Shown here in pieces: positions 6,355 to 7,955 of a stretch of 32,275 nt of DNA (position 1 is the first letter of the stretch; every line of letters starts with the position of its first letter). A model generated the notes under the pieces. The model was not told where the DNA came from. It worked only from the letters and a program-made list of their open reading frames with translations, and made no database searches. Source of the DNA: Deltaproteobacteria bacterium (GTDB lineage: Bacteria; Desulfobacterota; Dissulfuribacteria; Dissulfuribacterales; QOAL01); NCBI GenBank assembly GCA_026995935.1, contig JALWNK010000074.1:1-32275 (forward strand), written 5' to 3'. A program made the translations under genes and the position numbers.

Positions 6355-6485
6355 TTAGAATCAGGAAAAGTTTTTCCACAAGGCCACCTTTTTACCCAAA
6401 CTAACCAAAAGTTTTTCCATCTTTTCTTCATTACCTTCAAAAATAGGCCTGTCCCCACGTAAAAGGCAAAAAAGATTAAAAATTG

Positions 6486-6501
6486 TGGCACGGATCGAGC
6501 A
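6486..6501 (+). promoter_or_regulatory. Sigma-54 (RpoN) type promoter of the PEP-CTERM gene
   Basis: The sequence TGGCACGGATCGAGCA matches the -24/-12 consensus TGGCACG-N4-TTGCA. GG is at 6487-6488 and GC at 6499-6500 with the required 10 bases between; only the two T of the -12 box differ. The predicted RNA start is near 6512, giving a leader of about 29 bases containing AGGAG (6527-6531), 9 bases before the ATG. PEP-CTERM genes in several bacteria are known to be under sigma-54/PrsR control, which agrees with this placement. Confidence 0.7.
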
Positions 6502-6540
6502 TTTATTGAAATACAAGATATAAAACAGGAGATTTATCTT

Positions 6541-7335
6541 ATGAAATCTTTTATGAGTATCGTTCTTGCAGCATGTATCGCTTTTTTTATGAGTCTTATG
6601 GCTGTTTCCAAGGCCCACGCACTGGAGCTTGGGATTAATATAACCAAGTACGATGGAAGCTCATCTCAACAGTCAGGATGGCATGGCAAAAACGAGGACA
6701 ACGAGGTGGAGCCTGGTTGTGTTACAGACCAGAGCTGGGACTTAGAGGGCTTTTTCCTTAAGGGTTCTGAACTTCAGGTAGTTGGTGGTTTTGACTTCCT
6801 AAATGGAAATGGAAACATCAAAATAGGAGACATATTCATTGATGTGGATGGAAGCTATGACCCTGATGCATATACCATGACTAAAAATGGCAATGTTAAA
6901 GTGAAAAACAATTTTGGTTACGAGTATGTGTTTGATCTTGACGTAGGAAACAATAAGTACACGGTCTATGACATCTCAAAGGGTGCCTATACAGAGACAG
7001 TTTATTACAAAGGCAATCACCATTCCAACGCCTATCGTTATGTTTCTGGAGGGAAAAAAATTGCAAGCGGCACCCTCAATTACCTTAGCGGCCTTTTTGA
7101 CAGTGATGTTGGGGGCCTTTCAGGTGGTACCCATTACGCCCTTACTGGAATAGACCTTGGCTTTATTGCAGGAAAGGATTTTACAGCCCACCAGACCCTT
7201 GGCTGCGGAAACGATAATTTAATGGGTTCTGGTACGGCCCCTGTACCAGAGCCGGCCACCATTTTGCTTGTGGGCTCAGGCCTGGCACTTTTTGGCGCAA
7301 TGGGAAGAAGGAAGGCTGGAAGCAAAAGGGTGTAA
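6541..7335 (+). CDS. PEP-CTERM sorting domain protein, exported
   Basis: The 264-residue protein has an N-terminal signal peptide (cleavage likely after AHA, residue 28) and a textbook PEP-CTERM tail: VPEPAT at 235-240, a hydrophobic stretch ILLVGSGLALFGAMG, then a basic RRKAGSKR end. Such proteins are processed by an exosortase at the inner membrane and usually go to the surface or the exopolysaccharide matrix. The middle (30-230) is rich in Gly, Asn, Asp and aromatic residues and resembles no enzyme I know. No exosortase gene is in the window. The start is set by AGGAG 9 bases upstream and a sigma-54-like promoter before that. It ends at a terminator shared with the convergent small gene. 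Confidence 0.9.
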   Translation: MKSFMSIVLAACIAFFMSLMAVSKAHALELGINITKYDGSSSQQSGWHGKNEDNEVEPGCVTDQSWDLEGFFLKGSELQVVGGFDFLNGNGNIKIGDIFIDVDGSYDPDAYTMTKNGNVKVKNNFGYEYVFDLDVGNNKYTVYDISKGAYTETVYYKGNHHSNAYRYVSGGKKIASGTLNYLSGLFDSDVGGLSGGTHYALTGIDLGFIAGKDFTAHQTLGCGNDNLMGSGTAPVPEPATILLVGSGLALFGAMGRRKAGSKRV

Positions 7336-7356
7336 GATCCCCACCTTGAATACCGA

Positions 7357-7399
7357 ATAAAAGGCCCGGTGCCACTTTCATGTGACCCGGGCCTTTTTT
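7357..7399. terminator. Bidirectional terminator between two convergent secreted-protein genes
   Basis: AAGGCCCGG pairs with CCGGGCCTT, with an inner CAC/GTG pairing, followed on the plus strand by a run of T and preceded by A-rich sequence that gives CCTTTTATT on the other strand. It can end transcription of the PEP-CTERM gene and of the gene at 7431-7754. Confidence 0.85.
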
Positions 7400-7430
7400 C
7401 TTTTTATGGCAGATTAGCAAAGGTATTTCG

Positions 7431-7754
7431 TTACCAGCCTCTGTGGCCGTGTCCATGCCGGCTGCCATGTCCTTTTCTGCAACCGCTTCCCTTGCAGTTA
7501 CCGTAGCCCTTGTTTCCAGCGCAGTTTCCCTGGCCCCAGGCATACATTTGCCTTTCTTCGTCCGAGGCCTGTTGCATCTTCTCCCTCCAGGCGCTTCTGA
7601 AGGCGTCCCTGTCTTCATGGGACATATTCATCATGTTGCACCTCATCTGGGAAAGCTCTTTTAGGGAATAGCCTGAGTAATCAGTAGCAAGGGCAGCAGA
7701 GGCAAGCGCAAGGGCGCATGTAACCATCAGTGCCAAGAGCGTGTTTCTTTTCAT
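7431..7754 (-). CDS. Small secreted protein, DUF1104-like body with His/Cys/Gly-rich tail
   Basis: The 107-residue protein starts with a signal peptide (cleavage after ALA, about residue 23). Residues 24-70 (DYSGYSLKELSQMR...MSHEDRDAF...DEERQMY) resemble the small exported DUF1104 family, whose function is unknown. The tail from about 74 is low complexity: three Cys spaced among Gly and Lys, then GHGSRHGHGHRGW with four His. That suggests metal binding, but this is inference. The start is firm, with AAGGAGG about 9 bases upstream. It lies convergent to the PEP-CTERM gene, shares its terminator, and has its own sigma-54-like promoter, so the two may be expressed together. Confidence 0.75.
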   Translation of the reverse strand: MKRNTLLALMVTCALALASAALATDYSGYSLKELSQMRCNMMNMSHEDRDAFRSAWREKMQQASDEERQMYAWGQGNCAGNKGYGNCKGSGCRKGHGSRHGHGHRGW

Positions 7755-7790
7755 TTCTTGTTCCTCCTTGTCTTTGTTTGGTCTTTCTAA

Positions 7791-7806
7791 CTCAATTACC
7801 GTGCCA
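7791..7806 (-). promoter_or_regulatory. Sigma-54 type promoter of the small secreted-protein gene
   Basis: On the minus strand TGGCACGGTAATTGAG matches TGGCACG-N4-TTGCA at every consensus base up to TTG; the C of the -12 GC is A here. Spacing is correct. The element lies about 38 bases before the start codon, almost the same as the 41 bases for the PEP-CTERM promoter at 6486, and shares its TGGCACGG core. The A at the -12 position could weaken it. Confidence 0.6.
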
Positions 7807-7955
7807 AGGAGGTTTTTGTTTGGAAAAGCAAGTAAAATTAACCAGTTAAGGACAAACTGGATTTACAATTTTCCCCATGAGGCTGACCAAAGGAGCCCCT
7901 TTATCGTCCAAATTGTCGAAGATGGAACTTTCTATAAGGATGTGAGCAAAAGTGG

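Follow-up and report, generated by a model that had tools for sequence, protein, structure and literature searches.

Introduction

Several described systems resemble the arrangement analyzed here. ZraSR is an enterobacterial zinc/envelope-stress sigma-54 two-component system, in which divergent sigma-54 promoters serve the zraSR regulator operon and zraP, the gene of a small periplasmic protein of the metal-binding type; the activator site of Salmonella ZraR is listed as not known (PMC4987338). In the PEP-CTERM/EpsH system with PrsK-PrsR-PrsT, each PEP-CTERM gene is described as forming an operon of its own, preceded by a large intergenic region in which an activator motif is found together with a -24/-12 element (Haft 2006, PMC1569441). 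An individual example is pepA of Aquincola tertiaricarbonis, an RpoN-dependent PEP-CTERM gene with a mapped sigma-54 start, TGGCAC at -24, and a predicted enhancer upstream (PMC9850573). Additionally, HP0721, a DUF1104 protein of Helicobacter pylori, was among the proteins captured on immobilized nickel (PMC2225478), which is a weak pointer to metal binding because many proteins were retained likewise.

The window analyzed in this study is the whole stretch of 32,275 nucleotides of contig JALWNK010000074.1 (assembly GCA_026995935.1, Deltaproteobacteria bacterium). In this window, a PEP-CTERM gene and a gene for a small secreted protein (hereafter, the small gene) converge, each of them behind a sigma-54-type element. 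An earlier note on this DNA had suggested that both genes may belong to one sigma-54-controlled exosortase program. The reading that we favor, with a probability of roughly 0.83, is that the two genes use the same sigma factor and promoter type and would respond to two different activators.

Results

Sigma-54-type elements in the window

The two genes, the elements before them, and the hairpin between them are as follows.

6541..7335, + strand: gene of a secreted 264-aa protein with the C-terminal PEP-CTERM sorting signal VPEPATILLVGSGLALFGAMGRRKA (PF07589, 26.9 bits, cut-off 20.7; TIGR02595, 21.7 bits, cut-off 16)
6486..6501, + strand: sigma-54-type -24/-12 element TGGCACGGATCGAGCA of the PEP-CTERM gene, with GC at -13/-12; top-scoring site of the window
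7359..7400, no strand assigned: bidirectional intrinsic-terminator-like hairpin between the convergent genes (-25.4 kcal/mol, z -6.0), with a T-run on one side and an A-run on the other
7431..7754, - strand: small gene, encoding a secreted 107-aa protein with a signal peptide, a DYSxYSxxELxxMR helical core, and a Gly/His/Cys-rich tail; divergent DUF1104-like family
7791..7806, - strand: sigma-54-type element TGGCACGGTAATTGAG of the small gene, with GA at -13/-12, at a fixed distance from the upstream site that is kept in relatives

Both elements claimed in the earlier note were present (6486–6501 on the plus strand and 7806–7791 on the minus strand), and the GG-N10-GN spacing was correct in both. 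The two elements have TGGCACGG in common, and the start codons of the PEP-CTERM gene (6541) and the small gene (7754) lie approximately 39 and 36 bp, respectively, from the end of the 16-mer. The agreement with the promoter consensus was partial: the spacing held for both elements, and GG-N10-GC was found before the PEP-CTERM gene, with CGAGC in place of TTGC, but the GC doublet at -13/-12 was not found before the small gene, which has GA in the window.

The window was scanned with an approximate sigma-54 matrix based on the published consensus, whose scores are relative only, and 19 sites scored at least 9. Seventeen of these were located within ORFs, and the sole intergenic sites were TGGCACGGATCGAGCA and TGGCACGGTAATTGAG, which agrees with the claim that no comparable element precedes any other gene of the window. 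A bare consensus scan of the window and the genome was uninformative (TGGCACN6TGC with one mismatch gave 776 matches), and the bare hexamer pattern with two mismatches occurred 34 times in the window vs. 38 times expected from shuffles, i.e., there was no excess. Because the plain pattern count was not above chance, the case for function rests on position and conservation. Both of these hold: the small-gene element is kept across relatives, and other PEP-CTERM genes of this genome have such sites. Furthermore, candidate enhancer sites lie upstream at distances that agree with the 70–150 bp expected for sigma-54 promoters, and the genome encodes a single RpoN along with 16 genuine enhancer-binding proteins of the AAA+ activator type. 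We consider sigma-54 control of both genes to be well supported.

The PEP-CTERM gene and its palindrome

Two candidate activator sites were found upstream of the PEP-CTERM element.

6363..6378, + strand: candidate PEP-CTERM-type upstream activator site AGGAAAAGTTTTTCCA, which differs from TGGAAAANNTTTTCCA at one position and lies 107 bp ahead of the -24 element
6405..6419, + strand: second, degenerate copy CCAAAAGTTTTTCCA, which follows the first at approximately 41 bp and lies 66 bp ahead of the -24 element

The palindrome TGGAAAANNTTTTCCA (TGGAAAA-NN-TTTTCCA) is common to other PEP-CTERM genes of the window's genome, which has six PEP-CTERM genes in total and EpsH-type exosortases on contig C18. 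With ≤ 1 mismatch, the palindrome occurred in 10 places in this 2.59 Mb genome, and three of these precede PEP-CTERM sigma-54 sites, by 69, 69, and, for the window gene, 107 bp. A fourth place lies within a tandem array on contig C17, before a sigma-54-like site and the gene of a 74-aa secreted protein. This array (C17:13950-14133, L207) consists of three TGGAAAA-NN-TTTTCC-like sites 41–42 bp apart, together with the sigma-54-like site TGGCATGAAATAAGCA, and the distance between AGGAAAAGTTTTTCCA and CCAAAAGTTTTTCCA matches that of the tandem sites at C17:14035-14133. The 74-aa protein is unannotated and missed by PF07589, and its end, SEPTAIVLFGAMLVGVGGLFRRNFNRT, is PEP-CTERM-like; it is probably a missed exosortase substrate, located from the activator motif alone.

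With regard to the exosortase, PrsK, and PrsR that the earlier note had suggested looking for, the EpsH-type exosortase was found in the window's genome, and neither regulator reached its cut-off there: the best scores were 461 bits for PrsR (TIGR02915, cut-off 502.6) and 103.5 bits for PrsK (TIGR02916, cut-off 300). Assignment of PrsR by NCBIfam was dropped because the models could not tell the 16 activators apart, of which only L082 had TIGR02915 as its best match, below the cut-off. On inspection by eye, TTTACA, with which Haft motif 1 is described as ending, was not found within 330 bp upstream of the window's PEP-CTERM gene. The palindrome TGGAAAANNTTTTCCA is likewise unlike Haft motif 1 as described.

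The small secreted protein and its family

Homologues of the small protein were found in 18 of 99 related genomes, and all 18 belong to the order of the window's genome. The family core is DYSxYSxxELxxMR...SxEERxAFRxxW. The DUF1104 profile (PF06518) matched 8 of the 18 members (best 2.8e-7) but not the member in the window, and the family profile matched PDB 2XRH (H. pylori HP0721) with an E-value of 7.6e-6. The ZraP profile PF13801 gave 17.0 bits on the small protein, vs. a cut-off of 29.2. The predicted structure, with short helices and a disordered tail, was of low confidence (mean pLDDT 62), and a fold search with this model gave nothing significant. The proteins of the window and of its relative G007 are 92% identical, with the frame intact. 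Outside these genomes, a gammaproteobacterial homologue was observed near an OmpR-type two-component pair in Sedimenticola selenatireducens (L205, 5185-5676); neither a sigma-54 element nor an activator site was found there, so sigma-54 control does not extend to every member of the family. The composition of the tail, the ferritin-like operon mate described below, and the analogy with ZraSR-ZraP would give the small protein and its regulon a metal or envelope-protection role, for which we see slightly less than an even chance.

The small protein ends with GHGHRGW and matched neither PF07589 nor TIGR02595. An EpsH-type exosortase was found in 8 of the 18 genomes with the small gene vs. 25 of the 81 others (p = 0.28; within the order, p = 0.53). 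Ten of the 18 have no strong EpsH-type match and six have no PF09721 match at all, and the sigma-54 module is present in these genomes. The earlier note had named homologues without the element in exosortase-containing genomes as an observation that would speak against its proposal; what we found was the element in genomes without exosortase, which breaks the link between the small gene and the exosortase from the other side. As a side observation, C67:46852-47310 encodes a short exosortase-like protein of about 180 aa that matches PF09721 weakly; counterparts occur in several relatives, including genomes without an EpsH-type exosortase.

A conserved module upstream of the small-gene operons

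The module consists of the palindrome TCGACAAWWTTGTCGA (TCGACAA-NN-TTGTCGA), usually a half-site TTGTCGA 12–14 bp on, and then TGGCAY-N5-TTG[A/C], with 71–75 or 94–98 bp between the palindrome and TGGCA. The small gene does not share this site with the PEP-CTERM genes, which have TGGAAAA-NN-TTTTCCA. The module heads the operon in all 18 genomes with the small gene. In 15 of them, the palindrome (≤ 3 mismatches) lies directly upstream, and for each of these no more than 4 in 400 dinucleotide shuffles reached the same quality. In the three apparent exceptions (G012, G017, and G022), the small gene is the second gene of a module-headed operon; the operon head in G022 carries TCGACAAAATTGACGA and TTGTCGA, followed by TGGCACAATAATTGAT at a distance of 96 bp from the palindrome. 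The weakest module, in G010, has TGGCACGGATATGGCA and a palindrome with three mismatches. The exact tripartite site occurred in 30 places in 23 of the 99 genomes, and the reversed control gave single matches in three genomes. Two more MAGs outside the search set have the module before the small gene, and in L203 the small gene, a secreted protein, the kinase, and the activator form one operon. Two classes of spacing between palindrome and promoter can be distinguished, one of about 72 bp and one of about 96 bp, a difference of ~24 bp (L145, L056, L068, and other clusters). No paper describing the TTGTCGA site was found among the best literature matches.

In the window, the module includes a degenerate form of the site.

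7904..7919, - strand: degenerate copy TCGACAATTTGGACGA of the regulon's candidate activator site, with two mismatches to TCGACAAWWTTGTCGA and no downstream half-site; its end lies 97 bp from the -24 element, and none of 400 shuffles reached the same quality

Both mismatches lie in one arm of the palindrome. The copies in the window and in G007 keep the -24/-12 element and a spacing of 96–97 bp, and both have two mismatches and no half-site. Because the window's own site has lost this much of the motif, activation of the orphan small gene may be weak or of a different kind in this genus.

The window's genome contains 33 TGGCAYN5TTGA sites, and among the 31 examined (30 loci and the window site) only those of the window gene and of the DUF2202 gene lie before a gene and outside an ORF; the DUF2202 promoter carries the exact activator site. 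The intergenic TGGCATATAAATTGA at L165 (C4:7897) was rejected, as there is no gene behind it, and an exact activator site at C51:31194, which overlaps an ORF and has no sigma-54 site by pattern, was taken as chance. In a distant genome of the phylum (L161, G064:C269, approximately 1600–2410), the tripartite site and TGGCACAAGGATTGCT precede the gene of a ZraP-like protein (PF13801, 72 bits); this is a single case and may be due to chance.

Kinase, activator, and operon mates

In most relatives, the module stands next to the genes of a histidine kinase and an NtrC-type activator. The activators found there, adjoining the small gene or the site, are orthologous to L072, an activator of the window's genome, with about 53–68% identity outside the genus vs. 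~44% for the next-best paralogue of the window's genome. Such orthologues, with 55–68% identity, adjoin the small gene in 9 of the 18 genomes and the activator site elsewhere. The single exception is G081 (L162), outside the order, in which the neighbor is equally close to L072 and L073. In an ancestral-looking cluster (G014 and G016; G003 is similar), the small gene, the DUF2202 gene, and the Gly-zipper gene run one way, and the genes of a small secreted protein, the kinase, and the activator run the other way, with the activator site between the two divergent arms. Contig C23 of the window's genome carries the DUF2202 and Gly-zipper genes with an intact module, adjoining the kinase and L072, and the small gene lies alone on contig C74, apart from this cluster and with a decayed upstream site. 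G003 has two kinase copies (L064 and L152), 87% and 48% identical to that of the window's genome; one of its kinase clusters keeps the small gene, and the other resembles the C23 cluster without it.

The DUF2202 operon mate, which we take to be ferritin-like, matched its profile with 199.7 bits, and the Gly-zipper (lipo)protein was also matched; the Rubrerythrin match beside DUF2202 was weak. Our literature search found no paper joining DUF2202 with sigma-54. The kinase has two transmembrane segments flanking a periplasmic region of roughly 230 aa. Four divergent regions also carry TGGTAY-N5-TTG[A/C] sites toward the kinase, the weaker ones scoring only 6.6, which suggests that the kinase operon is autoregulated.

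The co-occurrence check proposed in the earlier note pointed away from the exosortase: the presence of the small gene goes with that of the kinase, which was found in 17 of the 18 genomes with the small gene vs. 8 of the 81 others (Fisher p = 3e-12; within the order, p = 3e-6), although part of this co-occurrence reflects shared ancestry. The one small-gene genome without the kinase is G010, which is 88% complete.

The base at -12

In the 29 promoters of the small-gene regulon, the base at -12 was A in 19, C in 7, and G or T in 3, and GG-N10-G was kept in nearly all of them. Owing to common descent, the counts are not independent of one another, and A at -12 is most frequent in the family of the window itself. 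In contrast, all five PEP-CTERM promoters had C at this position. A conserved departure from the GC doublet, with the -24 element and the spacing otherwise kept, appears to be unusual. GA at -13/-12 possibly marks a conserved sigma-54 promoter subclass, with stricter activator dependence or with tuning apart from the other sigma-54 promoters of the cell.

Discussion

We propose that the small gene belongs to a sigma-54 two-component regulon and has been relocated. The observed motifs, spacing, synteny, and co-occurrence form the basis of this proposal, and the pairing of activator and site, the phosphorylation, the signal, and the functions of the proteins are what it would add. In relatives, one palindromic site of the TCGACAAWWTTGTCGA type between two divergent sigma-54-type promoters would serve both of them. 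One promoter would drive the small DYSxYS protein, the DUF2202 ferritin-like protein, and the Gly-zipper lipoprotein, and the other would drive the small secreted protein, the membrane histidine kinase, and the NtrC-family response regulator, the likely activator. The signal that the kinase would sense in the periplasm is probably metal or damage to the envelope, and the phosphorylated activator would bind the site, upon which the sigma-54 polymerase would be opened. The induced Gly/His/Cys-rich and ferritin-like proteins might then bind metal or protect the envelope, like ZraP in ZraSR. The PEP-CTERM gene would be driven from TGGAAAANNTTTTCCA sites, common to other exosortase substrates, by another activator than that of the small gene.

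The proposal of the earlier note, in which the small protein would be part of the exosortase/exopolysaccharide program and the PEP-CTERM activator (PrsR or an equivalent) would serve both promoters, draws on the shared core of the two elements, their similar distances from the start codons, and the presence of EpsH-type exosortases and six PEP-CTERM genes in the genome. Its sigma-54 part stands, but the membership of the small protein is contradicted by the different activator palindromes, the different bases at -13/-12 (GC before the PEP-CTERM gene and GA before the small gene), the syntenic kinase–activator pair of the small gene itself, the missing exosortase association, and the missing PEP-CTERM signal, and we regard such a shared program as extremely improbable. 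The assignment of L072 draws on synteny and co-occurrence only, and with 16 candidates in the genome the small gene could be a sigma-54 target of another enhancer-binding protein; given that L072 orthologues stand beside the small gene in every relative for which an activator was identified in the neighborhood examined, this would be quite surprising.

The state of the upstream site in the window raises the further question of whether the element there is a relic, i.e., whether the site decayed after the gene left the cluster, and the gene is now silent or under another promoter. The two mismatches and the lost half-site in both the window and G007, set against the intact DUF2202 copy on C23, would be expected in that case, but the two copies have retained the -24/-12 element at its 96–97 bp spacing, and the proteins are nearly identical with an intact frame; we therefore judge a relic to be unlikely. 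A broader version of the favored reading is that the order-wide regulon is an undescribed sigma-54 two-component system of uncultivated Deltaproteobacteria-type organisms, which would sense a periplasmic metal or envelope signal and induce DUF1104-like and DUF2202 envelope proteins through a defined site and a GA promoter subclass. We put this forward tentatively, as possible rather than probable.

A plausible but wrong inference of guilt by promoter is thus replaced by a testable regulon, with a kinase–activator pair, a site, a fixed spacing, and targets, namely, the DUF1104-like, DUF2202, and Gly-zipper genes. Two domains of unknown function gain a regulatory context, probably in metal or envelope homeostasis. 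The results also indicate that adjacent sigma-54 genes can be distinguished by their activator sites, and they provide a candidate PEP-CTERM activator motif for a lineage without recognizable PrsK/PrsR, a motif that exposed what is probably a missed exosortase-type substrate.

Comparison with known systems

The PEP-CTERM gene of the window, and only this gene, resembles the PEP-CTERM/EpsH system of Haft in its single operon and activator-type palindrome, which lies 69 bp upstream in two genes of this genome. The motif differs: here it is TGGAAAANNTTTTCCA, whereas Haft motif 1 is described as 17 nt long and ending with TTTACA (PMC1569441); in addition, no regulator or kinase here passes the PrsR/PrsK cut-offs. 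The sigma-54-type PEP-CTERM promoter predicted here resembles that of pepA of A. tertiaricarbonis; that species has PrsK/PrsR equivalogs, of which none was detected in the window's genome. The small-protein family shares a D[YF]S-x(5)-L-x-M core with DUF1104 (HP0721, PDB 2XRH); in contrast to HP0721, the window's protein has no PF06518 match itself and has a Gly/His/Cys-rich tail, and its family is, as far as the promoters indicate, sigma-54-controlled here. The arrangement resembles ZraSR-ZraP in having an NtrC-family response regulator with a membrane kinase and, in relatives and on C23, divergent sigma-54 promoters for the effector and kinase–regulator operons that would share one activator site, as judged from the DNA, with the kinase-side sites being weaker. 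It differs from that system in that the activator scores 353 bits against the ZraR model cut-off of 760, the small protein is DUF1104-like rather than a ZraP (PF13801) protein, and the regulon here has the extra DUF2202 and Gly-zipper genes.
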